DNA from: Owenia fusiformis
Taxonomy: Eukaryota > Annelida > Polychaeta > Sabellida > Oweniidae
Direction: 5' to 3'
Length of the DNA: 64,000 bases
NCBI GenBank assembly: GCA_903813345.2
Contig: CAIIXF020000003.1
Location: 6,099,815-6,163,814 of the forward strand
A program made the translations under genes and the position numbers. The notes under the pieces were generated by a model that saw only the letters and a list, made by a program, of their open reading frames with translations, was not told the origin of the DNA and searched no databases. Positions 2,047 through 40,600 of the stretch are shown piece after piece. Positions within the stretch are counted from its first letter, which is position 1. Every line of letters begins with the position of its first letter.

Positions 2047-5000
2047 GTAAGATCCGAGTAATAAAATGTTTAATGTCTAAAACTCTTGATATAATATTTC
2101 CATACTTCACAACAACTAGTGGTATTAACATGCAATAATGCCTAAATAAAAATGTACTTCATGTTTGAATTTGATCCCCTTACGACACGAGGAATCCCTA
2201 ATAGTGGGAAAAATCAACTTTTTTTAAATAATAGAGGAATCCCATTGCTCTAGGTTTCACTAATACTACTAGAGATATGAGCAGGTCACTATTTTTGACT
2301 TTTTAGAAATTTAAAAGAAAACCCTTTTTATTCACAGTTTGATTTCATTTACATTATAATTCATTTCATAGCAACATGTTTAATAAGTAAGAAATGGTAC
2401 AGGGGGTACCAGTATTTTATGAAAAATAAAAATAACGTAAAAGAAAAACTTAGATTGTTAGAACATTTTAGATTATGATACACTTGCACCATTTTAAAGG
2501 TTATCCATAAATGATGAATCAGATTCATTACACGGAGGATTATTTTCTTTTGTTGTAGGAACTGCTGTCCACGGGAGACCTGGTAGTGAATATAAACAAA
2601 GGATTACAAGGGATACCAAGGACATTGTTAGCTTTTGCAACTTTGAAAAAGATTTCTGTGACTTCATTCATGACGAAAAAGCACAATTCAAGTGGCAACT
2701 CCATAAAGGAGAGACACCTAGTGGCCTAACTGGTCCTAGCTCAGACGTCACAAAAGGCACAATACATGGTAAAATATTTTTGTTATTTGAGGATTTATTG
2801 TTGTTATCCTAAATACTTCCAACAATGACACAAAGTGTACCATTTTTATTGTCCACCAAAAATGGGGAATTGATTTAGCTTTAATAAGATATAATATTAT
2901 GTGACTAAGCTTCAATCTTGTAGATATTGTGACAGTTTTTGACTGTGATGTTACATATCACAAGGAACAGATTTTACAATCTAAAAATGAAGAAATTCAT
3001 AAATAAATGTCTAATATGCCTGCTTCTATCTATGATAGTAGAAAGCCCATGCTGTACATTAATTTTTCTAACCTCAACTTGTTCCTAATGATTTTCAGGC
3101 TTTTTTGGAACAATTCACACAAGATGCCAATTATACATTTCTATAATAAAAAATCACAATGTTGTCACAATTTTGAAAAAAGATTGTCTAGGCAACCTAA
3201 TGATATTTATTTATTTATTTATTTATTTATTTCGATCTACACTTTTGAAACAGTGGCACGCTCTGCAATGCAAAGGTGCGTCGAATGTACATATTAAGAT
3301 AAAACAATTATTACAACTTACTAAAAACATTCATTTTGAGTATTTAATATAAACTGATTTTAAAAACCTTTTAAAACACTTGTCAAACATTCTACCTTGT
3401 TCTTTCCCCCAAATTTCAAAGACATCATCCCCTAACATGTATTTTAGCTTCTCCTCAGGAGAGAGAGAGATGAATTCAGCTACTAAAAGAGCGTCACATT
3501 TTGAAGTTATATCATTTATAAATTGTAACCTTTCATTAATGAACTTAGGGCATACAATGAATCGGTGAATTAAATCTTCAATGTCATTACTTTTACAATG
3601 AGGGCAAATTCCATCACTTTTCTTCCATCGTTTATTATCCTCCTCCAAGTTAAAGCACCCAGTTCTTGCCATGAATTTTAACCTGGAGCAATAGAAATCG
3701 ATGTCATCTTGGAGGTAGTTCTCTTTAAATGTATGTTTCTTAAGAACAGTGTAAGTTTTCAGTGATGTTCTCTTATCTATAGCTCCGAAAAAATCTGTAT
3801 TCTTCATTTCATTAGAGATTTCTAGGAAGGACTTATACCAAGTTTGATCGGTTGACTTTAAACAACTATCTAGGCCATGTTTAATTAGGGTATCAGAAAT
3901 TGATTTAATATAGGGCCAGGATGAAATCTTATTATCTTCGAAACGCTTAAACATTTCCATAAATATATTTCTAAAAAGTGTACTTTTTTCCATGCGCTTC
4001 TGTAGATGAAGGTAATAATCTATTATTCTTTTGTCAATGGTATTCAAAATCGGACGCCATCCTAAATCACCAATAACCGCTTCCCTGGCAGGCTTCATAT
4101 TTAGATTAAAAACTGATCTTCCAATGTTATATTGGAAAGAATTCATATCGTTACATTTGGATTTCGATTCAAAAGTAAGAATACCACACCCATGTAATAT
4201 TGCTGGAATGAACACATTATTGTGAAGAGTATCGCCAAATTTAAATCGTTGTATATTAGAGTGCTTGTTTAGGGTTGTATTAATATAGAGGCTTATTTTC
4301 TTAGCTTTGGGTCTTAAAAGTTCCTTAAAATGTGCTGTATCACTTAGATTGTTACTTATAATAACTCCTAGGTATTTGTAGACTTTAGTTTCAGTGAGAT
4401 TCAAATGGCCTAGTTTCCATGATGCATTGGGATTGATTTTTCGACCTACTGGCATTATTTTGGACTTTTTCGTGTCAAACTGAAACCCCCAGTATACAGA
4501 GAATTCATTAGCAACATTTAACATTTTGGATAACTGATGTTCTGATTCAGCTAAAAGTACTACGTCATCAGCATATAAAAGGGCAGGGATTCTTTGTCCA
4601 CCTAAAGGGATTCCTAAATTTTCATATTTGAGTCTTTCTGTAAGATCATTCATTATAACAAGAAATAGAGTCGGTGAGAGGGCACATCCTTGTCGGACAC
4701 CATATTCTGATATTCTGATACTCATACAATGATGGAAAAATAAGAAGAAATAAAAAAATTTTAAATTATTGAAATCATGAAAAATTCAATTTCAAAAGCT
4801 ATTTTTCGAGGTAACACATCACATTTCTTTCTTAAAGAAAAATATAATGAAAACTTGCATTATTTGATTTGAAATTTGACATACACGAATGGTGTTCAAA
4901 CTTCATACTCGCTAATTTTCATGACATTTGTTTCATATCTGCTCTTTTAAATAGAATATGTGAGTGTCCCATTGTTTTGCCCACCCTTATATATCCCCAA

Positions 5001-8000: not shown

Positions 8001-11000
8001 ATGGAACAGCAGCTGTTGAATTTAATGTTACCCTCCCCAATGTTGAAAAGTTCTGGTCATCTGATATTGCATTTTCTCAGCTTCGTATTTTCTCTCCAGG
8101 TAAGATTCATATTTAATGGATTGTTAAATTCATCGATTCAGTTTAATCCCTTTCTTTCCTCTATAGCTACATGGGATGTCACATAGATTTCTATTTTTAC
8201 TTTTTCTATATTGTGATTAGTTTGCCGGGTGAGCAGACATCCTAAAATCTTGTCTACAGGTTTTCAGACAAACTGTTAAATTGATTTATCTGAAAATTTC
8301 AGGGCTTCTATAGGTTTCCAGCCAAACTGTTTCATGGATTCATCTGAAAATTTTAGCGATATTTCAACATATTAAAGTTTAGAACTGAGTTTTTGGGCAG
8401 TCTGGGTAAATGTTAGGGTGGCCATTTTCAATTTTCCCTCCTGAAAACTATATTTTATTCAAGAGTGTGAACCTGGTCACTCAGTCTTTTGATAGATATT
8501 ATATGAAAAACACTGTCATTTTCCCTATTCTCTTCTTTGAATATAAGTTACATGAACTGAAATAGATTTTATAGCCAACAAAAGCTGTCACAATTAAAGC
8601 ATCCAGTTAATTACAAGTGTTGCCCTTTGTGCTTTCTCTTTTTATCTTTGTAGTATTTACTTATATTGTCATATGGCTTAATATTGTTTTTAGATTATAC
8701 GTTCACATGTATTCATGTGTACTTTTCTTATATTTCAGATTTATCACCTGATCCAGATGCAAAACAATCTACAACCACAACAAAACAGCCCTCTACAATT
8801 ACAAAACAACCAACAACTACAAAACAACCTACCACCACTACAAAACAACCCACCACCACTTCAAAACAACCCACCACAACTACAAAACAACCCACAACCA
8901 CTTCAAAACAATCCACTACCACTACAAAACAACCAGCCACCACTTCAAAACAAGCCACTACTACAACAATGCAATCCCAAGGAGTATCATATCCAAACAG
9001 AGTGTTATATTCCTGTACATTTGATGTTGATGACTGCAATATGGAGGATGATACTAATGATGATTTTGATTGGACCCGTCACTCAAAAAGCACAAAGACA
9101 GACACATCAGGCCCAAGAAATGACCATACTCAAGCTAATGATCAAGGTACCGCAAGCTGATTTTGTTTGTATGGGCTATAACTCAAATATGGTGGAGTGA
9201 TTTGATTTAAATATCACAGGCTGATATCTTAAGGGCTTCGGACTATCCTTACTTAAAATAAATTCTGTACATTCCTTATTCCAGGTTACTATATGTATAT
9301 AGAGACCTCAGATCCAAGAGTAAAGGATGATGTAGCAAGACTGTTCTCTCCTATACTGTCTCTCACTGAGGGGTCAACCTTGACATTCTGGTATCACATG
9401 TTTGGAGAAGATGTAGCACAACTTAGAGTAAAGATAGAGGAGAACATATTGTGGCAGAGAACAGGTAATTGCTAATTATTGTCATTAATTGACCTTCAGC
9501 TATCTCTGTGTCATATGTTTTTAGAGTGTTTAGGTAAATATGGTTAATTGACTCAAACACTGTTCAAAACTGCTATTTGTTTAAATGTCATTTCCTGATG
9601 AATCCTAAAAATCAGCATATAAACATGATCAAAATAATTGTTATAAAAACATGAGATGCGAGTTTGGTTGAAAATCAGAAATGGAAATGTGGACAAACGA
9701 TATACCAAATAAAATAACGGAACCTGTGGATTTGGTTTATTGAAGAAATAAATTCAATTAGTTATTTTTATATAAGCTGTAAAAATAACTTAAATTATTA
9801 GTCCATTTCCTAATTATTAAAGCCTATATGGACACTAAATTCATTGTTCACCTACTTTACACAATCAAGGTGTGATTAACCCCTACCTATCAAAACTTTT
9901 GGCTGACCCCTCAAATGCATTCTATTCTTCAGGCCCCCAGGGTGATGTGTGGCTCCAAGCAGCAGTATACCTGCCCCAGGGGAAACACAAGTTAATATTT
10001 GAGGCTACTCGTGGGGTTAGTTATAGAGGAGATATAGCCATTGATGACATCACTGTCACTAGAAGAGGTAACTAAACAAGTTAAATCAAGTTAAATATAT
10101 TTAAATCAAGTTGAATCAAGTTAAACAAATTTAATCAAGTTAAATATATTTAAATCAAGTTGAATCAAGTTAAACAAATTGAATCAAGTTAAATATATTT
10201 AAATCAAGTTGAATCAAGTAAAGCAATCAGGTTAAACAGTTGAATCACCTTCTTAAAATCATAAGATTAAAGGCGGTCTTTGCCTATTTCTGATCCTAAA
10301 ATGCACCAAAATCGAAAGAAATTCAGAATAACCTGTAACTTGGACCATTTGTAGATTTTGCTACAAGTCTTTTCTACAAATCTAGTAAAGATTTCTCACA
10401 TTGTAATTAGTGAATTAATTGCCTTATAGAAAAGGTTCACACATAGAAAGTAATAGCTTATCATATTTGAACTATCAAAGGGTAATGCAGTGAAACCTGT
10501 AAAGTTTTTCAGAGTCCCAAGACCAACTGACATTATGTTAAATGAACCTCAATAAGTGGAACACCTCCAAAGTGGAACACTTTTTAGAGCTACCAAATGT
10601 GTTCCACTTATACAGGTTTTACTGTATTTTTTACTGTTCTTTCACACTATAATCTTTTTAACCTTAAAGGCAAGTATAGTGATACTCATGAGTGCAGAAT
10701 CGTGGGTGATGATGAAGTAGGCATCTGTGTTGAAGATTGTACACAGGAGAATGCGACCACAAATACTGAAGACTCGTGTACTGGTGATACATTGTGTTGT
10801 TTTAATGGCTGTGGCCATGCATGTGAGAAAGGTAAGATAGGTAGAGACAACTGAATGGAAGTACATATATTCTACTAGCTTGTGATGTATTGTTGTTTCC
10901 AAGGTTATGGGCACAGGTGTGAGAAGTTGATCTTCATTTAGGCTCTTGTAGCAGAACATAAGCGCCCATCTCACATGATGTAGTGCAAGTATTTATGGGA

Positions 11001-14000
11001 TTTTTTTTATCTTTACCAACAGTTATGAAGGAACCTTTTTCTAGTTGGAGAAATCCTACTGATATAATCAGTAAAAAGTATAAGTAACACATCCCATCAG
11101 GGATTGCCCCATGCTGGACAGTCACATGACTGAAACTGGCCAATCAAATACATTAATTTGCAATGGTCTGGTTGGTGATAGTTTCCTTTATGAGATGGAA
11201 CATTTGACTATAACAGACTGATTTTACTTTGTAGGCAAGTACAGTGATGATCATGTTTGTCGGCCTGTGAGTGCAGGGAAAGTAGGAGCATGTGTAGAAG
11301 CATGTACACAGAAGAACATAACAAGGAATACTAAAGACTCGTGTACTGGTGATACAATGTGTTGTTTTAATGGCTGTGGGCATACATGTCAAATAGGTAA
11401 AACACAGACTCAGACTTTATGAGTTCTGCTTTTTTGGGTCACCCTGTAGTTTGAAGGCACATCTATACTGACAAATGAGGGTAAAGTGTTAGGTCAGAAA
11501 CTGTACCTTTATGGGTAGAGTAAACATTTTGTTTTGTAGTTTTTTGATATTTATAAAAGATCTTACATTTGATAACACAACTCAAAACTTAACTCAAAAT
11601 TATTCATTATGTGTATACAATTCATCTTACATACATGTACTGCCTACAATGATCTGCCAATAACTCAACTCAACATTCTCAACATGTACATGTATCACTA
11701 AACAGCTTGAACTTCACTGTCTTCTTCAGGTGATCCTAAGCCATCTCCTGAACCTAGCACAGTCTCCCCATTATCAGAAGTGAGCTTTTCTTGTGACTTT
11801 GATGGAGGAAACACCTGTGCATCACTTGAGAATGACCTTAGTGGGGACTTCACCTGGACATGGAACAAGGGGTCAACTAAAAGTGGAGATACAGGTCCAA
11901 CCAAGGATTACACTTGCTCCTGTGATTCTGGTACTTCAAATTGATTACCCTTGGCAAATGTTTTATTACTTCATTGGTCAATGGTTCTTGCATGGATCCA
12001 CCTAAAATAAAGCTCATGATACAATGATGGCTGTCAGTTTATCTTTAAAACTTTTGTTTTTATCAATTAAAACCACTTTCCCCATGGACTTTGGGATTTG
12101 AAATTCTGATCATATCAAATTATGTGTTATTAAAATTGATGATTTGCGATCACTGGATGGATTTTATCTTGCAGTGACGTCACAATTAGGCCACATTGCT
12201 ATAGCTGTTTGATTTTGAGATATCATCTTCTGTATTTCGTACTAATTTATCTATTTTTCACGAGTGTTCGATTTGACTAGATCAACATTCATTCTAAGCA
12301 TGTGCCAAGTCTAAGATCTTACTGACATGATTTAGATAGCGGTTAATGATTAGTATGAATTTCACCGAAACTTCACACATATAAAGATATACTCATGATC
12401 TAGTCAAATCGGCATACGTGGTAAATATTCGACCCAAGGTTTTCATCGAAGAAACGATAATATTTTTAGCTTAAAACTGCCACGTGTCCGCCATTTCCTC
12501 TGTCCATCATGTCTAATATCAGTTTTATTTGATGTCACACCAATAAGACGAAATACATGACAACAGTATACATGCATTCTGATCACAAAAGGTCAATTCC
12601 ATCACTAGTCTTGCTTCAATACTGTGCCCCCCCTTACCTAGAAGATAGGGGGGGGGGTCAGGGTCTTGAAGCAAGACCATTCCATCACCTAAGAAACCAC
12701 TATCTTGTGTGTGTGTAAACCGCACAATGGTACATATATGTTCCATTGTTTACATGTGTAGGCCATTCAAAGAAAATTATATGTTTAACATCCTGATTAA
12801 GAGCCAAATATTAGGGGATGGGAGTTGAAAGTATGATATATTCATGTATGCTGAAGATTCTTTGATTTAACTTACTCTATGCTATAAATTCACTTCTTTC
12901 TAATTCAAGGTGGGTATCTCTACATAGAGGCGTCCACCCCCAGGGTACAAGGGGACAGGGCTATGATATATGCCTCACTCACTCCACTACAAGATACACA
13001 TTGCCTCACATTTGCCTACCACATGTGGGGAAGTGACATAGGATCACTATGGGTCTCAGCTAGATCACAGTCCACTAATACTACATTGTTTACAAGAACA
13101 GGTAAGAACATTTATACAAGATTCACATTTCCTCACATTTGCCTACCACATGTGGGGAAGTGATGTAGGATCACTATGGGTCTCAGCTAGATCACAGTCC
13201 ACTAATACTACATTGTTTACAAGAACAGGTAAGAACATTTATACAAGATTCACATTTCCTCACATTTGCCTACCACATGTGGGGAAGTGACATAGGATCA
13301 CTATGGGTCTCTGCTAGATCACAGTCCACTAATACTACATTGTTTACAAGAACAGGTAAGAACATTTATACAAGATTCACATTGCCTCACATTTGCCTAC
13401 CACATGTGGGGAAGTGACATAGGATCACTATGGGTCTCAGCTAGATCACAGTCCACTAATACTACATTGTTTACAAGAACAGGTAAGAACATTTATACAA
13501 GATTCACATTGCCTCACATTTGCCTACCACATGTGGGGAAGTGACATAGGATCACTATGGGTCTCAGCTAGATCACAGTCCACTAATACTACATTGTTTA
13601 CAAGAACAGGTAAGAACATTTATACAAGATTCACATTTCCTCACATTTGCCTACCATATGTGGGGAAGTGACATAGGATCACTATGGGTCTCTGCTAGAT
13701 CACAGTCCACTAATACTACATTGTTTACAAGAACAGGTAAGAACATTTATACAAGATTCACATTTCCTCACATTTGCCTACCATATGTGGGGAAGTGATA
13801 TAGGATCACTATGGGTCTCAGCTAGATCACAGTCCACTAATACTACATTGTTTACAAGAACAGGTAAGAACATTTATACAAGATTCACATTGCCTCACAT
13901 TGCCTGCCATATGTGGGGAAGTGACGTAGGATCACTTTGGGTCTCTGCTAGATCACAGTCCACTAATACTACATTGTTTACAAGAACAGGTAAGAACATT

Positions 14001-17000
14001 TATACAAGATTCACATTGCCTCACATTTGCCTACCACATGTGGGGAAGTGACATAGGATCACTATGGGTCTCTGCTAAATCACAGTCCACTAATACTACA
14101 TTGTTTACAAGAACAGGTAAGAACATTTATACAAGATTCACATTGCCTCACATTGCCTGCCATATGTGGGGAAGTGACGTAGGATCACTTTGGGTCTCTG
14201 CTAGATCACAGTCCACTAATACTACATTGTTTACAAGAACAGGTAAGAACATTTATACAAGATTCTCATTGCCTCACATTTGCCTACCACATGTGGGGAA
14301 GTGACATAGGATCACTATGGGTCTCTGCTAGATCACAGTCCACTAATACTACATTGTTTACAAGAACAGGTAAGAACATTTATACAAGATTCACATTACC
14401 TCACATTTGCCTACCACATGTGGGGAAGTGATGTAGGATCACTATGGGTCTCTGCTAAATCACAGTCCACTAATACTACATTGTTTACAAGAACAGGTAA
14501 GAACATTTATACTAGATTCACATTTCCTCACATTTGCCTACCACATGTGGGGAAGTGACATAGGATCACTATGGGTCTCAGCTAGATCACAGTCCACTAA
14601 TACTACATTGTTTACAAGAACAGGTAAGAACATTTATACAAGATTCACATTTCCTCACATTTGCCTACCACATGTGGGGAAGTGACATAGGATCACTATG
14701 GGTCTCAGCTAGATCACAGTCCACTAATACTACATTGTTTACAAGAACAGGTAAGAACATTTATACAAGATTCTCATTGCCTCACATTTGCCTACCACAT
14801 GTGGGGAAGTGACATAGGATCACTATGGGTCTCAGCTAGATCACAGTCCACTAATACTACATTGTTTACAAGAACAGGTAAGAACATTTATACAAGATTC
14901 ACATTTCCTCACATTTGCCTACCACATGTGGGGAAGTGACATAGGATCACTATGGGTCTCAGCTAGATCACAGTCCACTAATACTACATTGTTTACAAGA
15001 ACAGGTAAGAACATTTATACAAGATACACATTACCTCACATTTGCCTACCACATGTGGGGAAGTGACATAGGATCACTATGGGTCTCAGCTAGATCACAG
15101 TCCACTAATACTACATTGTTTACAAGAACAGGTAAGAACATTTATACAAGATTCTCATTGCCTCACATTTGCCTACCACATGTGGGGAAGTGACATAGGA
15201 TCACTATGGGTCTCTGCTAAATCACAGTCCACTAATACTACATTGTTTACAAGAACAGGTAAGAACATTTATACAAGATTCACATTTCCTCACATTTGCC
15301 TACCACATGTGGGGAAGTGACATAGGATCACTTTGGGTCTCTGCTAGATCACAGTCCACGAATACTACATTGTTTACAAGAACAGGTAAGAACATTTATA
15401 CAAGATTCACATTTCCTCACATTTGCCTACCACATGTGGGGAAGTGATGTAGGATCACTATGGGTCTCTGCTAGATCACAGTCCACTAATACTACATTGT
15501 TTACAAGAACAGGTAAGAACATTTATACAAGATTCACATTTCCTCACATTTGCCTACCACATGTGGGGAAGTGATGTAGGATCACTATGGGTCTCTGCTA
15601 AATCACAGTCCACTAATACTACATTGTTTACAAGAACAGGTAAGAACATTTATACAAGATTCACATTACTTAACATTTGCCTACCACATGTGGGGAAGCG
15701 ACGTAGGATCACTATGGGTCTCTGCTAAATCACAGTCCACGAATACTACATTGTTTACAAGAACAGGTAAGAACATTTATACAAGATTCACATTGCCTTA
15801 CATTTGCCTACCACATGTGGGGAAGTGATGTAGGATCACTATGGGTCTCTGCTAAATCACAGTCCACGAATACTACATTGTTTACAAGAACAGGTAAGAA
15901 CATTTATACAAGATTCACATTGCCTTACATTTGCCTACCACATGTGGGGAAGTGATGTAGGATCACTATGGGTCTCTACTAAATCACAGTCCACGAATAC
16001 TACATTGTTTACAAGAACAGGTAAGAACATTTATACAAGATTCACATTTCTTCACATTGCCTACCATATGTGGGTAAGTGACATAGGATCACTATGGGTC
16101 TCAGCTAGATCACAGTCCATTAATACTTCATTGTTTACAAGAACAGGTAAGAACATTTATACAAGATTCTCATTGCCTCACATTTGCCTACCACATGTGG
16201 GGAAGTGATGTAGGATCACTATGGGTCTCTGCTAAATCACAGTCCACTAATACTACATTGTTTACAAGAACAGGTAAGAACATTAATACAAGATACACAT
16301 TGCCTCACAGTTGCCTACCACATGTGGGGAAGTGACATAGGATCACTATGGGTCTCTGCTAGATCACAGTCCACTAATACTACATTGTTTACAAGAACAG
16401 GTAAGAACATTTATACAAGATTCACATTGCCTCACATTTGCCTACCACATGTGGGGAAGTGACATAGGATCACTATGGGTCTCAGCTAGATCACAGTCCA
16501 CTAATACTACATTGTTTACAAGAACAGGTAAGAACATTTATACAAGATTCTCATTGCCTCACATTTGCCTACCACATGTGGGGAAGTGACATAGGATCAC
16601 TATGGGTCTCAGCTAGATCACAGTCCACTAATACTACATTGTTTACAAGAACAGGTAAGAACATTTATACAAGATACACATTGTCTCACATTTGCCTACC
16701 ACATGTGGGGAAGTGACATAGGATCACTATGGGTCTCTGCTAGATCACAGTCCACTAATACTACATTGTTTACAAGAACAGGTAAGAACATTTATACAAG
16801 ATTCACATTGCCTTACATTTGCCTACCACATGTGGGGAAGTGACATAGGATCACTATGGGTCTCAGCTAGATCACAGTCCACTAATACTACATTGTTTAC
16901 AAGAACAGGTAAGAACATTTATACAAGATTCACATTTCCTCACATTTGCCTACCACATGTGGGGAAGTGACATAGGATCACTATGGGTCTCTGCTAGATC

Positions 17001-20000
17001 ACAGTCCACTAATACTACATTGTTTACAAGAACAGGTAAGAACATTTATACAAGATTCTCATTGCCTCACATTTGCCTACCACATGTGGGGAAGTGACAT
17101 AGGATCACTTTGGGTCTCTACTAGATCACAGTCCATTAATACTACATTGTTTACAAGAACAGGTAAGAACATTTATACAAGATTCTCATTGCCTCACATT
17201 TGCCTACCACATGTGGGGAAGTGATGTAGGATCACTATGGGTCTCAGCTAGATCACAGTCCACTAATACTACATTGTTTACAAGAACAGGTAAGAACATT
17301 TATACAAGATTCACATTTCCTCACATTTGCCTACCACATGTGGGGAAGTGATGTAGGATCACTATGGGTCTCTGCTAGATCACAGTCCACTAATACTACA
17401 TTGTTTACAAGAACAGGTAAGAACATTTATACAAGATTCACATTACTTAACATTTGCCTACCACATGTGGGGAAGTGATGTAGGATCACTATGGGTCTCA
17501 GCTAGATCACAGTCCACTAATACTACATTGTTTACAAGAACAGGTAAGAACATTTATACAAGATTCTCATTGCCTCACATTTGCCTACCACATGTGGGGA
17601 AGTGACATAGGATCACTATGGGTCTCAGCTAGATCACAGTCCACTAATACTACATTGTTTACAAGAACAGGTAAGAACATTTATACAAGATTCACATTGC
17701 CTCACATTTGCCTACCACATGTGGGGAAGTGACATAGCATCACTATGGGTCTCTGCTAGATCACAGTCCACTAATACTACATTGTTTACAAGAACAGGTA
17801 AGAACATTTATACAAGATTCACATTACTTAACATTTGCCTACCACATGTGGGGAAGTGACATAGGATCACTATGGGTCTCAGCTAGATCACAGTCCACTA
17901 ATACTACATTGTTTACAAGAACAGGTAAGAACATTTATACAAGATTCACAAAAGATCAGTTTTGTTTAAACTCTTTAAATGTGTTTAGACTCTTTTATTA
18001 TTTATTAGAGTTTATTTGTTTTAGCTAATAATATAATGATTTACTACAATACTTTTGTACATTTCTGCATATAAATAACCAAGATTAATTTCTCATTTGA
18101 AACTCTATTAAAGATTTGATATTACCTAAGATCTCACAATTCAAGATTAAAATGTAAAATTACCTTTTTAAAACTCTTAGATCAATTCTAAGACTCATTT
18201 TGTAACAAAAAGGTACATGCATATTCAATGGCTTTTCACTATTATAGGTAACCAGGCTAACCTTTGGTACAGTCAATCAGTTGATATTGCACCCTCTGTG
18301 ACTAGAATTGACTTTGGAGCTACAACAGGGAGTGGCTGGAGAGGTGACATTGCATTAGATGGTATATCTCTCCAACAGGGGGCATGTGCAGGGCAGTCAG
18401 GAGTCACGACAACTTCACCATCTTCAACGAAGACAACCTTTAAACTTACTACAACAACAACTTTGCCTCCAACAACTACAACCAAGCCTTCAAGCACTAC
18501 AACCAAGCCTTCAAGCACGACAACAAAGCCTTCAAGCACTACAAAAAAGCCTTCAAGCACTACAACAAAGCCAAGCACTCAAACAAGCACTTCCTCCAGC
18601 TACCAAACCAGCCAATCAACTGTTAACGGAGTGACATCATTACAAACTGACTTTGAATCCGGGTTTAATGGTCTGCTACATGACCCTAATGGTGACTTCA
18701 ACTGGACCATAACTAAAGGCGAGACGCCCAGTCATGCCACTGGCCCTACCAGTGATCATACTTTAGGCACCTCAGAAGGTACAGTATTATTCTCTTAAAT
18801 GTAGATTTGTTTACTAGGCAAATATTCAGCTAAATTGGAATCATCTCTATAAGAACTAAATGAACTTCAGTAAAACAAATCTAATCTGAATGCAACTGAG
18901 ACCATACAGAAGTGTTCGGATTTTTGATGAACAGGTGTTCACATTTCAAGTTTAGCCATATCAAATGGGAAAACATCAAAGTTGGACAGTTTTTTCATAA
19001 TGCAAAAACTGTTTATAGAGAGCTTTTCAGATGAGACTTGCTCAGATATACAGGTTTTACTGTGTAGTACTTTACATGTACATAGAAAAGCAAAATGGGG
19101 AATTGATTGAAACAATTAATTGAAGACAAAATTATTGAAACGTTATTGGATAATACAGTGAATTAAGATGATTAAAACATATGAAATCTTGATGTTTTAG
19201 GTCATTATGCTTACATTGAGACATCAGGGCCACAGGTTCAAGGTCAGAAGGCCCGCCTTATGACCCCAATGTTGACCTCAAAAGGCACAGGCAATGGATG
19301 CCTCGTCGTTGAGTTTGTAGACATGTTGTATGGTATAGATGTCGACACATTGACTGTCTATATCAAACATTTCGGTCAGTCTGAGGTGTCAGTCTACTCA
19401 GTCAAAGGTTTGTATACATCTATGTTTAGCACATGTGGTGTCCAGAAACATTTATAAGGGAATTGGACAATTCAATATTGAATATGAAGCAATTTTTCTG
19501 AAATGCCATTTAACAGAGCTTATTTTTGGAAAACATAAATAAAAACTAATTTAGATTAAATATAGCTGTAATTTTATTAGTTATACATTATGGTCATTAA
19601 ATCACTTTGAATAGAAGTTGCAAAGGATTGGTGTCAATATGGTGAACTGAATTCAACAATGTTTTTCTCTTAAACCAATCATTGAAAACATTCTGTAAAA
19701 AACACAGTAATTTATGTAATGTTGTCTGATTGACAACAATTTTATGCAAAAATTATTTTAAAATATTTTTTTTATATGACTGTTTTTGTTAACATTTTTT
19801 GTTTTTTTAGTGCAATTATTTTTGCTCCTTTTTACCAATTCTTGAGAATGAAATAAAATGTCTTTCCGAACAAAATAGCATATACAAATATGTTTTTAGT
19901 CCTCTCAATATTAGAGTTATACAAAGGAATTTTTGGTTGATTTTAAAAAAGTACTCAAAAAATTAAAACAAAATCCCCCAAAAATAGATAAAAATCAAGA

Positions 20001-26000: not shown

Positions 26001-28313
26001 TGGTACTGGCCCATTGTAATGGTAGGTATTCTATATAAACTGTTCCATGCATGGCCAGTTCTTATGTCACCATCAGGAAGAGATGATAGTAACGTGACAT
26101 GATTCACATTGAGCGTGATTGGTTGATATCTGTGGTCAGCTTCTGTAACAAATTGTTGTAGTTTTGAAATCCTATCCATAAGAACTTACCTAGGTGACAC
26201 ATCTTGTCATGTTAATGCCTTACCTAGGTGAGATATTTTGCCTTCTATGATGAAGCTTTAGACCAATTAAATTGCTTGTTTTCAATTCACTTTATACATC
26301 TTAATAATGTATGGCTTTGTTTTTGAGGATTGGGATGGGGTATGGGTCAATCTGAAAATAGATATCAAGTTATTGAATAATATAATGCTATAAAGCATAC
26401 AATAAGCATCCCATATAAAAACAATATGGCCACTCTACGTAAGTCAACTGGATCAGTCCATTTTTGAGAAATAAGGGAAATTCCAGTTTATTGAAATCGT
26501 CTTGGAGATAAAATAATCCAGTTACAATAATTCTGTAAACATTGAGAGAGTGAATTATCCAAAGGATGCATGTGCATCAGTGAATAAACATGTAAATCCT
26601 TGTGTTAAAATTGCTTTGTTTCACAAGGAAAAATCATTTGATGCAATCGGAGTGTAGTATGGTAAGCCAATGGGGATTCAGGGTACTCAGATGATCTGAT
26701 TTTTGTTTGAATTATTATTCTTCAGAGGAGGTAAATGATATCCCAGCATCCCCTGTGTTCAAGTGTACAATGGAGGAGGCATCATGTTCCATAAAGAATA
26801 CTGGTCAATTTGATTGGTCAGTTGGCCAAGGAGCCACAGGACAGAGTAACACTGGACCAACCACAGATGCCACATATAAAAATTCAAATGGTATGCACAC
26901 ATTTGCATTTTCCTGCCAAAAAAGATTTATCAACAATTTTTAATAATCTGACTTTCAGCAATGTTCAGACTGTCCAACTTGTTCTAATAGCATGGATGCT
27001 ACCTGTAAGATTGTGAAATAATATGAAATACATTCAGCGGGCAAGAATCGACAAAGCATGAAACATCTGAACACAAAACATTTTACCTTTCAGGGCATTA
27101 CCTGTACATAAACACACAATTTCGCAACACAGGAGACAAAGCAAGGCTGCAACTTCCCTCTATAAAAGATGGTTCTGCATATCTTCACTTCAACTATCAC
27201 ATGTATGGACAGGACATCAATACCCTCACAGTGTACCTTAATGAAGGTGCTGAGGTACCAATATGGAGCATGAAAGGTAGGGCATTGAATGGGTGATAAA
27301 GCATTGTGTATAAAGGGTTAGGGCATTGAATAGGTGATATAGCATTGTACATAAAGGGTAGGGCATTGAATAGGACATATTATGTAAAGTATTCTGTAAG
27401 GGTATTGAATTGTATATATGAGGGCATTTTGTATAAAGGGTAGGTCGTTGAATATGAAATAAACTATTGTGTACAACGTAGGGCATTGAATAGGTGATAA
27501 AGCATTGTGTATATAGGGAAGGGCATTGAATAGGAGACGAAGCATTATGTATTAAGGGTAGGGCATTGAATAGGAGATAAAGCATTTGTATAAAGGGTAG
27601 GGCATTGAATAGGAGATAAAACATTGTGTATAAAGGGTAGGGCATTGAATAGGAGATAAAGCAATGTGTATAAAGGGTAGGGCATTGAATAGGAGATAAA
27701 GCATTTGTATAAAAGGGAGGGCATTGAATAGGATAAAAAGGTTGTGTATACGGGTAGGGCTTTGAATAGGAGATAAAGCATTGTGTATAAAGACTATGGC
27801 TTTTAAATAGAAGATAAAACATTTTATATAAAAGGTAGGGCATTGAATATGAGATAAAGCAATGTGTATAAAGGGTAGGGCTTTGAATAAGAGATAACAA
27901 CCATGCAGCACTCATGTGATTTCATGCATTTTGTTGTAGGTGATCAAGGCAACACTTGGCACCAGGCTAGTATCCCAGTGACTGGAACGGCCAAATACTC
28001 TCTCACCATAGAAGCTACAGCAGGCAGACTGGGAGAGATAGCCATCGATGATATCATGTATTCCGCAAGAGGTATGTACCATTTTGTTTTATTGTTGTTA
28101 TATCACTGTCATGCTTGCCATTTTCATATTAAGCAAACCCAATACAGCATGCATTACTCAAAATTTGAAACAAATGAAATTACAACCACAAAATGGTTGA
28201 ATGATGCCAGTTAAAGTGACTCAGTGCATATTTTTCAGTGTTCTTAAGCAAAATAAAGACTTATTTTTCATCTCCCATTTCTTTCCAAAGGATTGATATG
28301 TACTCAAACTTGA
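1977..28313 (+). CDS. Secreted multi-MAM, two-WAP-domain protein (28 coding exons)
   Basis: Exons read from GT/AG borders, open frame and MAM homology: 1977-2046, 2559-2768, 5096-5284, 5958-6104, 6339-6557, 6964-7081, 7468-7544, 7938-8099, 8739-9146, 9285-9464, 9933-10067, 10670-10831, 11235-11396, 11730-11930, 12910-13101, 18248-18778, 19201-19407, 20489-20647, 21052-21294, 21698-21883, 22245-22388, 23710-23898, 24526-24726, 25884-26021, 26726-26890, 27094-27276, 27940-28071, 28291-28313. They sum to 5,133 nt, 1,710 aa plus stop. All introns are phase 1 except intron 6 (phase 2). Order: signal peptide, MAM1-3, WAP1-2, MAM4-8, with Thr-rich linkers before MAM3, MAM5 and MAM6. I see no membrane segment, so the product should be secreted. 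MAM domains are known as extracellular interaction or adhesion modules, and WAP domains often inhibit proteases; the role here is inferred only. Stops precede the chosen ATG in frame. The very short last exon is the least certain. Confidence 0.9.
2559..6104 (+). CDS. Exons 2-4: MAM domain 1
   Basis: Three phase 1-1 exons (210, 189 and 147 nt). The N-terminal part carries [10 protein letters not shown] and the [10 protein letters not shown] turn. The middle part has [12 protein letters not shown]. The last part has GDIALDDI followed by GNC. All four canonical MAM cysteines are present. Intron 2 holds a truncated LINE. Confidence 0.92.
3205..4727 (-). mobile_element. 5'-truncated non-LTR retrotransposon (LINE) in intron 2
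   Basis: An open frame (4725-3331) encodes the C-terminal half of a LINE polymerase: [13 protein letters not shown], the catalytic [11 protein letters not shown], and a C-terminal [16 protein letters not shown] zinc-knuckle region. The 3' end is an (AAAT)n tail at about 3205. The 6-bp direct repeat aatgat flanks it (3199-3204 and 4728-4733), and the 5' part is missing. With an intact frame of 464 codons it looks fairly young. The clade was not assigned. Confidence 0.88.
5455..5700. repeat. Possible dispersed repeat shared with about 26062-26270
   Basis: Both intronic stretches have gtcacca near one side, then taggtg-acat-type sequence and tgtcatgttaatgcctta. Only part of the similarity is certain by eye. 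Confidence 0.35.
6339..8099 (+). CDS. Exons 5-8: divergent MAM domain 2
   Basis: Exon 5 encodes the N-terminal third, with SCDFANPGW and a second cysteine at NNGCGN. Exons 6 and 7 split the middle third at a phase-2 intron, the only one in the gene. Exon 8 encodes the last third with [10 protein letters not shown] in place of the usual GDIAIDDI motif. Exons 6-8 contain no cysteine, so the second disulfide of the MAM fold must be absent. All joins keep the frame open. Confidence 0.82.
7333..7377. repeat. 45-bp near-perfect inverted repeat in intron 6
   Basis: ttatcccgtgccaggacta pairs with tagtcctggtacgggataa, one mismatch and almost no loop. It can form a cruciform or RNA hairpin. Confidence 0.85.
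8739..10067 (+). CDS. Exons 9-11: Thr/Lys/Gln linker and MAM domain 3
   Basis: Exon 9 opens with about 70 residues of repeated KQPTTT or KQPTTTS, a likely O-glycosylated stalk, then starts MAM3 ([10 protein letters not shown]). Exons 10 and 11 supply WYHMFGED and [10 protein letters not shown]. Cysteines 3 and 4 are both missing, as in MAM2. The antisense strand of the linker is also open, but that only reflects the ACA/CAA-rich codons. Confidence 0.9.
10076..10235 (+). repeat. 49-bp tandem repeat just inside intron 11
   Basis: About three and a half units built from caagttaaat-like decamers, starting within about 10 nt of the exon 11 donor (10068). Confidence 0.8.
10487..10626. mobile_element. 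MITE of the acaggttttactg family, intron 11
   Basis: Ends cagtgaaacctgt / acaggttttactg, with ggaacac repeats inside. It lies only about 45 bp upstream of exon 12. Confidence 0.7.
10670..11396 (+). CDS. Exons 12-13: two WAP (four-disulfide core) domains
   Basis: Two 162-nt phase 1-1 exons (10670-10831 and 11235-11396) encode related 54-residue modules. Each has eight cysteines, with the VEDC or [19 protein letters not shown] and final C signatures. The Cys-Cys pair and x3 spacings at the C-terminal end fit the WAP family; the gap between cysteines 3 and 4 is longer than usual. WAP domains are commonly serine-protease inhibitors or antimicrobial; no inhibitory loop can be assigned here. The two exons look like a tandem duplication. 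Confidence 0.85.
11730..18390 (+). CDS. Exons 14, 15 and first part of 16: MAM domain 4
   Basis: Exon 14 (11730-11930) gives [11 protein letters not shown] and [13 protein letters not shown]. Exon 15 (12910-13101) gives [17 protein letters not shown]. Exon 16 starts at 18248 with [10 protein letters not shown], then [10 protein letters not shown] and GACAG. All four cysteines are present. The exon 14 donor (gtactt) is weak. Between exons 15 and 16 lies a 5.1-kb intron, most of which is the 127-bp array grown from exon 15's own end. Confidence 0.88.
12989..17938 (+). repeat. 39-unit tandem array built from the 3' end of exon 15 plus its 5' splice site
   Basis: The unit is 127 bp: 113 bp of exon 15 (12989-13101) plus 14 bp of intron (gtaagaacatttat). 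It occurs 39 times: 36 units of 127 bp and three of 126 bp, exactly 4,950 bp, followed by a 12-bp partial unit. Units differ at a few sites (ttcctc/tgcctc, gacata/gatgta, gctaga/gctaaa, ctcagc/ctctgc). Each unit ends its exon-like part with acag|gtaaga, a good donor. Unit joins fall at acaag, a short match between exon and intron, suggesting how the first duplication formed. Read straight through, the frame shifts by one per 127-bp unit and soon stops at the tga after gggaag. Confidence 0.95.
18391..20647 (+). CDS. Rest of exon 16, exons 17-18: Thr-rich linker and MAM domain 5
   Basis: Exon 16 runs on to 18778 through a Thr/Lys/Pro/Ser linker (repeats of TTTKPSS) and the start of MAM5. Exons 19201-19407 and 20489-20647 finish it with [17 protein letters not shown] and a C-terminal GC. 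In MAM5 the first cysteine pair is missing (TDFESGFNG where others have CDFE..C) while the second pair is kept. A 740-bp palindromic element sits in the intron between exons 17 and 18. Confidence 0.88.
18868..19062. mobile_element. MITE of the acaggttttactg family, intron 16
   Basis: Left end cagtaaaacaaat, right end atatacaggttttactg. The inside shares ggtgttcac with the 505-972 copies. Confidence 0.55.
19617..20356. mobile_element. 740-bp imperfect palindrome (foldback element), copy 1
   Basis: Ends gttgcaaagga and tcctttgcaac are complementary, as are inner landmarks (atggtgaa, tttccgaac, ctctcaatatt, tttggttgattttaaaaaa). The whole element is a long hairpin centred near 19990. It lies in intron 17 of the MAM/WAP gene. 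Confidence 0.85.
21052..22388 (+). CDS. Exons 19-21: Thr/Pro linker and MAM domain 6
   Basis: Exon 19 is taken from the acceptor ending at 21051, because the alternative AG at 21035 reads into a stop after eight codons. It encodes a short Thr/Pro/Ser stretch, then [12 protein letters not shown]. Exon 20 (21698-21883) gives [11 protein letters not shown]. Exon 21 (22245-22388) gives [10 protein letters not shown] and GLC. All four cysteines are present. Confidence 0.87.
21935..22180 (+). repeat. Short tandem repeat near the 5' end of intron 20
   Basis: Degenerate repeats of tgatttgtgatacaatat with varied spacing, beginning about 50 nt after the exon 20 donor. Confidence 0.8.
22689..23578. mobile_element. 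890-bp TIR element in intron 21 of the MAM/WAP gene
   Basis: Ends gtgtcgcaaaaaggtggcgc and gcgcgaccttcttgcgacac are complementary with few mismatches. The inside contains ggaggacgaaagg twice and no credible coding frame. Confidence 0.7.
23710..26021 (+). CDS. Exons 22-24: MAM domain 7
   Basis: Phase 1-1 exons of 189, 201 and 138 nt. Key residues are [12 protein letters not shown], a [15 protein letters not shown] turn, [21 protein letters not shown] and a final HC. The domain is complete. The preceding intron holds an 890-bp terminal-inverted-repeat element. Confidence 0.9.
24285..24365 (+). repeat. Short tandem repeat in intron 22
   Basis: gcaggatattcaatgcatat with ttgtacat, two to three units. 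Confidence 0.6.
25510..25577. mobile_element. MITE of the acaggttttactg family, intron 23
   Basis: Right end ttacaggttttactgta. The body carries gtgttccactt as in the 10487 copy. The left end is diverged. Confidence 0.5.
26726..28313 (+). CDS. Exons 25-28: MAM domain 8 and C-terminus
   Basis: Exon 25 gives [12 protein letters not shown]. Exon 26 gives [12 protein letters not shown] without the usual third cysteine. Exon 27 gives [11 protein letters not shown] chose a last exon at 28291-28313 (LICTQT, stop) because of its strong pyrimidine tract and because it places a cysteine where MAM domains end. That cysteine would lack its usual partner, so a second acceptor ending at 28809 (adding DFGK, stop at 28823) is a real alternative. 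Confidence 0.75.
27277..27897 (+). repeat. 40-bp tandem repeat starting at the exon 26 donor
   Basis: About 15 units of a 40-bp sequence containing gtagggcattgaatagg and gataaagcattgtg. The first unit starts at the 5' splice site itself (aaag|gtaggg), and most later units keep aagggtaggg, so the donor motif is copied again. The repeated antisense reading frames here are artefacts of the array. Confidence 0.9.
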
Positions 28314-34692: not shown

Positions 34693-37600
34693 TTATTTCC
34701 GGGAGCGAGTTTTCCTTTTCACAGTAACTTTATCCTGTATAGGTTTTGTTGATACGCTGGATTCAGAATTATCTTCACTTGTGTTATATGACTTCTTCCT
34801 TTTCGCAGTCACTTTATCATCAATAGGTATTGTTGATACACTGGATCCAGAATTCCTCCTTCTCAGTGTTGGGGTTTTCTTCTCTGAGACATCTGTACCT
34901 CTCTGATCCAGCTGAAACAACAGGATGAAGAATTGCTTAATTGAGAAATCAGAATAGATACTACAAATTAAGGAACTATAAAAAACAATATGCTTGATCA
35001 AATATTTTTCAATGAATAAAAAAGGAATAAAAATAAAATAAAATAAGTTTAATACATTGCTTGGCCAAATATTGAAGCGGACATTTATAGCATTGCATGT
35101 GTTACCTTTCTGTTTGCTGAAGTAAAATCAGCTTCAGAATCAGTGCTAGTATCAGATTCACTGTCCACTTTACGCTTGCGTCCTTTCTGTGACCGTCTCA
35201 CAAACTGTGCTGGAGATGATCTCTTACCTACACCTAACCTTCGATTGTAGTTATCCCTATTGTTCTGAAATATAATGTATTTTAAATTAATTGTTGTAAA
35301 TAATTTTAGACAAAATATACATTGTCTACATATACTGTACTGATATAAAGAGGTTATTTTCTGGGAGTTATTGAATTTGGGTAATGTATTAGAAAAGAAA
35401 TTATATTCAGAATTAATTGAGGATTAAAGACACTTTCTTTTCTCTGAACTATCTCCCTCATATACACACACAGTTAATCCCTTTAAAGGAATAAGTGAAT
35501 TCCTTCAGAGGTTTTAAAGATATCCATTATGGGTGACCAAAATTAAGCTGAAAGCAATGGATCGCATGAGTTTTCCCTATGGGAAAATAACATGGGAAAT
35601 ATTGTTTTCGACTTAATCTAAAAGGAATTACCTATTCCTTTAAAGGATTAAACTGTCTCAAAACGCAACATATAGATACAACGAAAATTGAAAAAGCAGG
35701 GGTTGAAAAACATTTCACAAAAAACATGTGGGTGGATTGTTTACATCTTCCCTGTCTCAAAGTGGAAATCATTTTATCATCTCTATCAGTGCTTGTCCTG
35801 GAGTTAATGCATTGGTCTAACATATGCACCTGTTTAAATCCTCAGAAAATAGCCAAAATCCAACATATGACTGTCCGAAATCTGTTGCGATACTTTCCCT
35901 TCTCCTTTGAAATATTATGACCGTATTCTCTGTATTAAGTGCATGGGCATTTAAAAACTCAAAATACCTCCTCCAGACCATTCTAATAAGCACAAAGATG
36001 TGAAAAAAGTTAATAATCACTGTGAATTTCAAGTATTGCAATATTTGGGCAGGAATTGCTTATTTGCAACACTAGAATGAAGCAACAACATTAATGTTTA
36101 CACAGAAGAGCCCCTTGAATTAAATGAATGGTTTTCCCTGATTATCTTCATAATCTCCATTACAGACTGTTCAATATTGATATTAAGTAATTACCTTATT
36201 GTTTTAATTTAGGTAGGTTCTAAATACAGCGATTACTGTTGTTAAAAGTCACTTACTGCTTTGGTGGCTGGTTCTATCCCATGTTTCTCCTTCAAATGTA
36301 GGGTCAATGCATAGCGTTGTGTGTAGCTGACATCACATGTATCACACTTGAATGCCCTAATTTTATCATGTATAGATTGCTTGTGTCTTTTGAGTGCAGA
36401 TTGTTGGGTAAAACATTTCAGACAGACATCACACTTATGCTTTCTCTCACCTACAAAACATTGATATGAACTGAACATTGATATGAACTGAACATTGATA
36501 TGAACTGAACATTGATATGAACTGAACATTGATATGAACTGAACATTGATATGAACATTGATATGAACTGAACATTGATATGAACTGAACATTGATATGA
36601 ACTGAACATTGATATGAACTGAACATTGATATGAACTGGACATTGATATGAACTGAACATTGATATGAACTGAACATTGATATGAACTGAACATTGATAT
36701 GAACTGAACGACGGTATTATCATTACATTAGCACCGTGCAACGTGGTACTACATGTAATTTCGACCATTAATTAGAATTTTTGATGATGTTTGAAAATCA
36801 AGGATTGCGAGTATCATACTGCACCGTTTTTCTTTAAACTTGTTCCATTCAAAGCATAACAAAAATGCCTTTCTGTTGGTACAGTATTCTGTTAGACAGA
36901 GTCTCTCCTTCCAGCTGTGAGAAGGGGTTTTAATAGCTGGTGACCAAAACGCTGCTAAAAGTAGGGACTCTTTCCAATTAAGCATTATGCACCGGCAGAA
37001 AGGCAATTTTGTTTTGCCTTGAATGGACCAAGTTTGAAGAAAAACGATGAAGTATGATACTCGCAATTCTTGACTTTCAAAGATCTGGTATGTTATATAA
37101 GTTTAATATGTTTACCAGTATGAATGACCATATGTCTTTGTGTTGCAGCTTGACTATTAAAGGATGCTCCACAAGTCTCACAAACATGTTTCCGTTCATT
37201 TGTGTGGAATGCTATGTGACTTGTCCATTCAGTTCTGGTCCTGAATCTCTTGCCACAGACTTCACATTGATGTGGTTTTTCACCTGTGTGAGCTCTGTAA
37301 TGACTTTCCAATTCTGAAACATGAAAGAATGAACACCTGAAACATAGATACAAATAGTGGTAAAAACCTAAAACATGGGAAAATGAAAACCTTGTTATTT
37401 CCAAGGTCTTTTACCACCATTTAAGACCTGATACTCTGTCTTGAGTTATATATGTACTGGTACTACAATCTTAAAAAACAATCTGAAAAAATGAGAAGTA
37501 AATACAAAGTATTTGGAGTAACCATTTTTTCCCAAAGGTCCATGTGCAGTATGGCAAGTGATTTTAGACAGTCATATCTTCCACCATGAGTACTTTCTCA

Positions 37601-40600
37601 CCATAAATACAGTGTTTTTAATAAAAACAACATGTTTTCTTTCAAGGGAAATTCCCTTGATAGTAAAATATTAATCCAACTCTGGTAAATCATGGTTTAG
37701 GATCCGGGCACTTTTAAAAAAATGTTAGGCTTATTTTCTAAAAAAGAGGATCTTGTTTTTCTTGATTTATCCATCGCAAATGTTTCATCTACACTATATT
37801 TACAACTTCTGAAAAGGGGATTGGTATTGAAATGCGTTAAAGTTAAAAACCGTATCCCATGTTATTTTCCCATAGTGAAACTCGTGCTATCCATTGTTTT
37901 CAGCATAATTTTGGTCATCGGAAATTGATATCTTCAAAACTAGACTTTCAATACCATTCTACTTTTAAAGAAGTTTTAGACCCCTTTTTGAATAATATTT
38001 TCATGCAAGAAAAATCAGAAAAAGGAAATCCGCTTTTTGTAAATAAGTTCAACATTTTGAAAAAATTGATTGATATTTTTATCATCATGGGTACTTCACT
38101 TGAAAGAAAACATATTGTTTTAATAAAAACCACTGTATTTATGCCCAGAAAGTACTCATGGTGAAGGATATGACTGTTTAAAATTACTTGCCATACTGCA
38201 CATGGTTCTTTCAATGGTTTCATTGCATATCATGTAACCATGTAACCATCATTTCAACCTTTAAGATCAAAGGAAATATCATCATTTCAACCATGAGAAA
38301 CCATTGCGCAACCTTTACTTCACCCAATCTTTTCAACCTTTTTTACATGTATAGTTGCAATGGTTACACAACTGATTTTTGAGAAACTATTGCAAAACCA
38401 TAACATTTTATCTAAGTTACATACCTTTTTTATAGAAGAAGACTTTGTCACATTTATCGCATGGGTAGTCACCAATTTTATGAACATGGGATAAATGCTG
38501 CTTGTATCTGTCATTTATGTTATATTTTCCCTTTTTCTTTATTGTAAAGAGTTTTCCACATAATTCACACAATGAAAAGTATAAATCAGGCTCTTTTTTG
38601 TCCTTGCAAATTCTCATGCAAGCTTTTACATGTGGATATTTATGATGCAAACCTAGGAGGTTTTTATCACAAACTGGGCATTTGTTTGTCTGCTTGGAAT
38701 GCTTCATAGCACATTTTTGAAAATGCTTTCTTAACTTGCCTTCACACATATTCACTTTGCAGAAAGAACAACAATGTGTCAGTTCACACCAGCTTCTATG
38801 GTAAGAACAGTCAGGATAATTATTGAAGTTAGTATTACAGCGACGGCAGGACCAGGTTTTCAAACTGCAGATTCTGGTATGTTCTTTCAGCATTGTTTCA
38901 TCATTGCTTGTAAAATCATAACAATTTCTGCAAACCTTTTTATTTTCTTTGCAATGGGACTCATGGTATTTAAGTGTTTTAGTTGTTAAATATTCCTTCT
39001 TTTTACAAAACTCACATGTTAGGGTATTTACTTTGTTTCCTTCCTTTTCAATCGTTTCCTCCTCAGCTGCACTGTCAAAGATAAACTTCAACTCACCATG
39101 TCGATGTTTTAGGAATTGACCATGTGACTTGAAAACTCGAAAACATGTATCACATTTCAATGAATATGACCCATCTGGCTTTGTTTTTTTCGAACTACAT
39201 TTCTCAATAAGCTGCAGTATTTTTTGATACTGTAAATATGGATGCTCAGAGACATATTTTTCAGTTGCTGGCTGAAGCTTATCTTTCTTCTCACTCACTT
39301 TGATACTTGCAGTAGGTTTATGTTGATTTGTTTTGTTTGTTTTATTTTGATTCATATTTTGATTACTTATGATTTTGTTACTTTGAACTTCCTTCTTGTG
39401 GAATCTCTCATCTCTGTCATTCAGTGTATTTTGGACATTTGAATCTTTATTTTCTGATTTAATGCAGACATCATCTGTAGTCTTTAACATTTCAAACTCA
39501 CCATGTCTGTCAATTACTCTATAGTGTTTTGTTTCAACATGATTGTCTTTGTTATCAGGCCGAGTCAAAGTATTTTTTGTTTGTAACACGTCGCTATGAT
39601 TGTGTCCTTGAGGATTTTCTACAAGGACTCTCGGTTGTGTAGGTTGCGTTCCAATTAGCTCAATTGATCTGGTTTCTTTATTTTTGGGTTCATTTGTTGT
39701 ATTTGATGGCAATGTTTGTTTCATTTCCCTTTCATTTTTTGATTTAGGCATTTCTATTTCAAAACGCTGCCTCTTTTTCTTGCTAAAATTTAGCCCCATT
39801 CTTTTCAACTCACTATTTACATGAATATTATCATGTTCCAGTTCATACTCATCTCCAGATGAGTCTGTTGGGAGTTCATAATAATCATCATCATTGTCAC
39901 TATCACCAAGAACATTATCATCATCATCTTTTTGTTTTGTGTCTTGACAATGTACCATTTTGATATGAGCCTTAAGTTTCTGATCTCTGTTGAATGCTTT
40001 TCCACATATGAGGCAAGTGTATTGTGGAGTCTCAGCAGTATTGTCACCAGTTTTATTTGTTGCATCGTCAGGCATGTCTTTGCCAGTATCATTGTGATTG
40101 TTATGTTCTGAATGAGATTCTATATTCATATGGATCATCTTGTTGGTATCAAGTGAGTCATCTTCCCATTTACTTACAAAGTTACTTGGCTTTATTTCAC
40201 TTAGATCTTTGAGGTTTGTGCTAGTCATATTTTTGTCTTTTAAGATACATATTAGACTCTGTGAGTCTTGAATGTTTGAAGCAGCAGATGTCTGATTGTC
40301 CTTTTTGTCAATACTGATTTCATTTCCATGTTTGAGGTTGACGTTACTATTATATTTCTCTTTGATATGAATTGATTGGTAATTCATTAAGTCTGGAATA
40401 GTGTTGGATGACTGACTATCTGTTTTGTCAATACTGATTTCAATTCCATCTTTCAGGTTGATGTTACAATTATCTTCCTCTTCACTGATAAACATTGGGC
40501 TATAACTCATTAAATCTGAAATGTCTGTAGCATCGGATGTCTGACTATCTGGTTTGTCAACAATGATTTCATTTCCATCTTTCAGGTTGATGTTACAATT

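Follow-up and report, generated by a model that had tools for sequence, protein, structure and literature searches.

An array of 39 exon-tail and 5' splice-site copies in an Owenia fusiformis MAM gene, and similar arrays at other exon ends of the genome

If an intron carries 39 good donors in a row, which of them is joined to the acceptor, and how did the row come about? This question is raised by a stretch of 64,000 nucleotides from the annelid Owenia fusiformis (assembly GCA_903813345.2, contig CAIIXF020000003.1, positions 6,099,815 to 6,163,814 of the forward strand), here called the window, in which a gene for a multi-MAM protein holds a tandem array at 12989-17938 on the plus strand. A sequence-only reading of the window had described this array as a 39-copy minisatellite grown out of an exon-intron boundary; it had left the choice of donor open and had offered a decoy field, a source of isoforms or neutral expansion as possible roles. 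We consider the best explanation, and a probable one, to be that the intron grew nearly neutrally by multiplying its own 5' splice site, while the first donor remained the working one.

Tandem Repeats Finder reported a single array at this place (12988-17950; period 127, 39.1 copies, 96% matches). Splitting 12989-17938 at the unit ends gave 39 units in head-to-tail order. Of these, 36 measure 127 bp and 3 measure 126 bp, adding up to 4,950 bp, which confirms the copy number and the unit arithmetic of the sequence-only reading. Three of the 39 carry a 1-bp deletion, and 31 distinct sequences are found among them. Each unit consists, as had been claimed, of the final 113 bp of a coding exon (12910-13101, plus strand, 192 bp, phase 1-1) and the initial 14 bp of its intron. 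To this we add that the array runs 12 bases past unit 39, where a partial 40th copy (ACAAGATTCACA, 17939-17950, plus strand) repeats the unit start. The donor CAG|GTAAGA is intact in all 39 units, from the first (GTAAGAACA, 13102-13110, plus strand) to the 39th at 17925-17938 (plus strand), an interval that covers all 14 intronic bases of unit 39. The sequence CAGGTAAGA is also present in 39 of 39 units, with two further occurrences on the plus strand of the window. Of the 5,146 bp of the array intron, 4,823 bp (about 94%) consist of copied exon tail and donor, leaving 323 bp without copies.

The unit was searched against its own genome (498,259,871 bases, 525 contigs); only the best candidates were scored, and the counts are lower bounds. 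At least 39 matches were returned, all at this array, and a dispersed satellite or transposon-derived repeat was rejected on these grounds. The copy number might have been inflated or collapsed by the assembler. One assembly was searched and the locus is present in it as one copy, so there is no second allele to compare, and the published Owenia assembly, which we take to be the one used, was purged of haplotigs (PMC9977687). However, that assembly was built from PacBio reads with an N50 of 25.75-30.75 kb, several times the array length, and its annotation was aided by RNA-seq (PMC9977687). The distinctness of most units and the many similar arrays in the genome, described below, also speak against an artefact, which we regard as very unlikely; the exact number of 39 may be off.

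A protein search with 321 residues returned Owenia fusiformis P0001, a deposited gene model of 1,674 residues, with 100% identity over that region. Residues 1-1205 of P0001 map exon by exon onto the window from 9041 onward, and exons upstream of 9041 are therefore prediction only. Our gene model places 24 exons between 2559 and 28071, all divisible by three and with phase-1 ends, properties that follow from our choice of splice sites. Counted from 2559, with the gene start provisional, the array exon is the 12th of these 24; what had been called exon 15 is indeed a coding exon of the deposited protein, but its number differs in our model. The array exon matches P0001 exactly and has a Pfam match to MAM (PF00629) with an E value of 1.5e-9. 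The next exon (18248-18778, plus strand; E 1.6e-10), also placed by P0001 and the exon model, encodes the second half of the MAM domain, a Thr-rich linker and the start of the next MAM domain. The accessions listed for P0001 are PF00629, PF00057, PF15494 and PF00089, of which we take the last three to be LDLa, SRCR and trypsin domains beside MAM. Within a modelled intron of the gene, a reverse-transcriptase open frame (RVT_1, E 1e-16) lies on the minus strand at 3331-4785. In the snail Littorina saxatilis, the MAM protein P0003 has four tandem copies of NSSGIEPGTCNFEDPKLC at its C-terminus, a coding repeat at a MAM-domain start.

In P0001, donor 1 is joined to the acceptor at 18248. When the use of each of the 39 donors was simulated, the reading frame was kept by donor 1 alone, and the transcripts from donors 2-39 all ended at one in-frame TGA (13161-13163, plus strand). 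The description of the donors as good is borne out, as the array donor has the joint best score of the 24 in the gene, using a matrix from the other 23. The acceptor had been called single and clear. It is the one used in the deposited protein, but it is weak: scored by a matrix from the 23 remaining acceptors of the gene, it comes 23rd of 24, and the intron AGs at 18009 and 18025 outscore it. The choice of donor is now less open than it had seemed, since donor 1 is the one joined in the deposited gene model, in agreement with exon definition (PMC9225289). In minigenes with two identical CAG/guaagu donors and flanking introns of 365 nt, the upstream donor was used exclusively (PMC9225289), and the introns flanking the array exon (979 and 5,146 bp) would fall into the same class.

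The copies could instead vary the protein, either through different donors or as cassette units, and a unit spliced from column 6 would indeed be an in-frame 108-nt phase-1 piece. However, the 38 later donors all lead to the same premature stop, and the acceptor matrix found no credible acceptor within the array units. The best mean score for any unit position was 1.1 and the top single site, in one unit, scored 3.0, compared to 4.1-15.0 (median 12.4) for the 24 acceptors of the gene. Units serving as cassette or tandem alternative exons were rejected, as no unit has a 3' splice site of quality. Tandem alternative exons of the Dscam type are many head-to-tail exon copies in one intron, each with its own acceptor, and the Owenia units differ from them in this respect. 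A MAM cysteine codon is lost in 18 of the 39 units (13 TTC, 5 TAC; unit 1 retains the codon), which, like the 1-bp deletions, argues against a source of isoforms. Because donors 2-39 share one stop and the units lack a credible acceptor, the isoform proposal is unsupported, and we consider it extremely unlikely.

The exon side of the junction (TACAAGATACACA) and the intron side (TACAAGATTCACA, 13 bases past the donor) overlap over 13 bp with one mismatch, as is expected for a tandem duplication between short direct repeats. This near-repeat likely marks the birth of the array by slippage or unequal exchange; 12988-13000 and the partial copy at 17939-17950 form a short direct repeat that is the probable duplication seed. 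Growth from an exon-intron boundary, with multiplication of a strong 5' splice site, is thus supported by the unit composition, the exon model and the near-repeat. Among the common variable sites, all four combinations occur in 43 of 78 pairs; the units therefore recombined and are mosaics. Neighbouring units are slightly more alike than in shuffled order (P 0.04), and no higher-order blocks of 2-6 units were found beyond shuffled order (P 0.14-0.66). Ten of 24 changes among the units are synonymous, versus 22-27% expected, which is only suggestive of coding selection.

We propose that tandem duplication between the near-identical stretches at 12988-13000 and 13-14 bases into the intron would have produced a second exon tail and 5' splice site, and that further slippage or unequal exchange would have raised the number to 39. 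Under exon definition, the acceptor at 12910 would pair with the nearest donor, donor 1, giving the 192-nt exon, and the 38 other copies would be spliced out within an intron of 5,146 nt that formerly may have measured about 323 nt. Products of later donors would meet the same stop and presumably be cleared by nonsense-mediated decay. With donor 1 in use and the other products stopped and presumably decayed, growth would be close to neutral, and it would be tolerated because the first donor keeps being used. The same type of array has arisen at 3' exon ends of other Owenia genes. Of the roles proposed earlier, neutral expansion fits best, and the similar arrays at other exon ends strengthen it.

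Several points weigh against this explanation. Human IFI6 uses two downstream repeat units as donors (PMC4526556), and a 68-bp duplication in CBS prefers the more distal site (PMC2630376). In the array, 46 contiguous bp around the donor are without a variant common to two or more units (P = 0.012 under random placement, post hoc), which could point to constraint rather than neutrality. Windows counting every variable column around the donor gave only P 0.04-0.10, and we therefore do not rely on donor conservation, which stays a hint of constraint. The invariant stretch and the 39 intact donors would also suit a regulatory decoy, in which U1 snRNP would bind to donors 2-39 and gene output would be lowered, delayed or protected according to the number of copies; so would the pairing of a donor that ties for best of 24 with an acceptor near the bottom of its ranking. 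However, in local RNA accessibility (mean 0.31) the array donors fall within the range spanned by 200 random GT sites and the gene's 24 real donors. Although the RNA is predicted to form a local stem, a hairpin masking the donors was rejected, as their accessibility is ordinary. Similar arrays in unrelated genes also point to a genome-wide mutational habit and not to a gene-specific device. The decoy field finds little positive evidence, and we regard it as unlikely.

The gene contains a second donor-multiplying array (27276-27897, plus strand), with units of about 40 bp from the exon end. Its start coincides with the donor of a further MAM exon (27277, AAG|GTAGGG), and 8 near copies of that donor follow downstream (at most 4 mismatches in 20); here too, P0001 uses the first donor. 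By the same measure, 2 of the 24 donors of the gene are multiplied. A 10/49-bp array at 10073-10226 begins 5 bp into the intron after donor 10068, and the donor is not copied. Three of six intron arrays of the gene touch a donor (P at most 0.0007), in a post hoc count in which this non-copying array at 10073 is included.

We scanned the genome for CAGGTAAG occurring three times at a spacing of 101-131 bp, with the reversed word as control. The scan gave 395 matches (261 + 134), 37 of which belong to the array at 12989-17938, compared to 71 (49 + 22) for the reversed word. Grouped by eye, these fall into at least 34 places for CAGGTAAG, from a first list showing 100 of the 395 matches and sublists showing 100 of 127, 100 of 130 and 63 of 63, versus 15 places for the reversed word, whose list of 71 matches was complete. 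In a 259-kb sample, CAGGTAAG occurred 5 times, the reversed word 3 times and four other shuffles 4, 8, 3 and 5 times, counts that are too few to exclude a twofold difference in frequency. If real donors raise the word frequency, the excess of places would fit either tolerance or preferential birth of such arrays.

The 5' end was read at 26 of the 33 other places: all 8 others of the first list, all 10 of the T list (2 common to both), and, hand-picked, 5 of 9 remaining G places and 5 of 8 remaining A places. Seven were left out (C5:7348138, C5:36342619, C7:17719729, C10:33687894, C11:6273009, C11:35601079 and C12:14772491), and the shares among the 26 may run too high because at least two of these look like short degenerate repeats. 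At 10 of the 26, the peptide ending at the array had a family match with E at or below 0.001; 4 had weak matches, 7 were exon-like without a match, and 5 were negative, displaced or not classed.

The ten matches are to an ion channel (L029, E 1e-11), scramblases (L031 and L032, E 6.4e-20 and 3.8e-20), a NIF phosphatase (L033, E 4.9e-6), peptidase M24 (L034, E 2.7e-7), PF15874 (L039, E 7.6e-8), YjeF_N (L054, E 6.1e-14), SLC22 transporters of known structure (L048, E 3.8e-6, with no Pfam match), and, both below the Pfam cut-off score, a kinase (L042, E 1.6e-4) and Mucin2_WxxW (L047, E 3.9e-4). The pore motif of L029, TVGYGD, is presumably that of potassium channels. The weak matches are to importin-13/transportin-3 (L030, E 0.012), saccharopine dehydrogenase (L049, E 0.17), and monocarboxylate transporter 10 over its whole length (L052, E 0.34, with no Pfam match). 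The fourth, L036, is ambiguous and also had no Pfam match: FEM1C matched residues 6-23 (E 0.021) and aminotransferases nearly the whole peptide (E 0.27-0.95), and we think that the aminotransferase match may be the truer one. Exon-like peptides without a counted match end at L038 (a coiled-coil region, 0.043), L040, L043, L046, L050, L051 and L055. At L041, the array is displaced, lying about 80-100 bp past the end of a methyltransferase exon; L037 and L045 were negative, and L044 and L053 were not classed.

The 26 places were also scored by combining an open frame with a matrix derived from the window's 24 acceptors; for L036, L044 and L054 the first donor was assigned manually, and up to 1,500 random GT sites served for comparison. 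At scores of at least 6, 8 and 10, the places passing were 13, 5 and 2 of 26, versus 11.7%, 6.1% and 1.4% of the random sites (P 2e-6, 0.019 and 0.05, respectively). For the window's own donors, the numbers were 21, 20 and 17 of 24. Given this check, the places without a family match are likely, though not proven, to be exon ends.

The two scramblase places (C1, at about 60.00 and 59.97 Mb) are paralogs about 34 kb apart, with related units and 18 and 5 exact donors; since the units are related, the donor array may be older than the duplication of the paralogs. After the M24 peptidase exon (L034 and L035; C2, about 378.9-383.4 kb), a donor array with 30-bp units contains 24 exact copies of CAGGTAAG in 2.1 kb. 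In L033, L040 and L043, the unit takes only GT from the intron before the copy starts again at AAGT; the donor consensus may thus itself have served as short homology with exonic AAGT.

Tandem repeats are common in the Owenia genome: a sample of 20 10-kb stretches from the contig of the window held 62 arrays covering 9% of the bases, 7 of them at least 1 kb long. Arrays over splice sites are therefore to be expected, and what stands out is their retention at the exon ends of conserved genes. An acceptor-like word, TTTTCAGG, occurring three times in arrays gave 274 matches versus 23 for the reversed word, but the word itself is 3.8 times commoner than the reversed one (46 versus 12 in 259 kb), and we give this excess as a remark only.

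The repeat unit of the human IFI6 (6-16) minisatellite measures 12 bp, far below the 127 bp in Owenia. That minisatellite has "multiple splice donor sites" (Turri et al. 1995, NAR 23:1854; via PMC4526556), and its units serve as donors, as every Owenia unit carries one; however, IFI6 employs two downstream units and yields three mRNAs (PMC4526556), whereas only donor 1 of the Owenia array keeps the frame. PMC3618361, PMC2915984 and PMC2572611 bear on IFI6 only by citing that work. The human CBS VNTR, c.1444_1467+7(16_21), has a 31-bp unit, with single substitutions distinguishing the copies (PMC2630376). The name implies that the unit spans the coding end and the first 7 intron bases, with the boundary copied 16-21 times; it differs in unit size and copy number (31 bp and 16-21 versus 127 bp and 39) and in being a human polymorphism, compared to one worm assembly. 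Exon-intron boundary repeats in human segmental-duplication genes alter splicing and can form novel introns (PMC2812944). Those introns are new and belong to recent primate paralogs, whereas in Owenia growth takes place at the 5' end of an intron already present, and the first copy maintains the frame. Repeats in earthworm metallothionein introns (PMC12783039), chicken MUC2 (PMC3549977) and DDX3Y (PMC3039753) were set aside as being, in the portions available, of another kind. The Owenia unit contains a consensus 5' splice site, and the array starts in a coding exon and runs into the intron. Given the boundary repeats already described, the locus is of a kind already known; what sets it apart is the size of the unit, the number of copies, a frame forbidding all donors but the first and, above all, its membership in a recurrent set. 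Among the papers listed by searches of open-access literature, we found no report of a recurrent set of donor-multiplying arrays.

Two further arrays lie elsewhere in the window. A 17-bp array (CAGTTCATATCAATGTT, about 15 copies) on the minus strand at 36457-36709 ends 6 bp before the putative acceptor of a zinc-finger exon (exon start 36450), and a paralogous zinc-finger exon at about 58634 has no array. At 40304-40885, 129-bp (43-codon) repeats lie within a 1,042-residue open frame on the minus strand.

In Owenia, copying of the exon tail and donor would be a route of intron lengthening. Going further, we tentatively raise the possibility that a genome-wide process preferentially multiplies splice sites, with short direct repeats at exon ends seeding arrays and many introns growing by copying their own 5' splice site, perhaps also the 3' site. 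Were this doubtful step true, the genome would hold dozens to hundreds of such arrays, each a natural competition among identical donors. Choice among identical donors is usually studied with few competing sites in constructs, such as two-donor minigenes (PMC9225289), and Owenia offers 39 in a row. The further arrays span ion channel, scramblase, kinase and transporter genes, and data of the Owenia project are public (PMC9977687). The arrays allow one to ask whether the first donor wins, how leaky the choice is, and whether more copies bring more leakage. With comparable arrays at the exon ends of other genes, Owenia provides natural experiments on the choice among identical splice signals, and the main value of the finding is this set of many natural identical-donor arrays within one animal genome.

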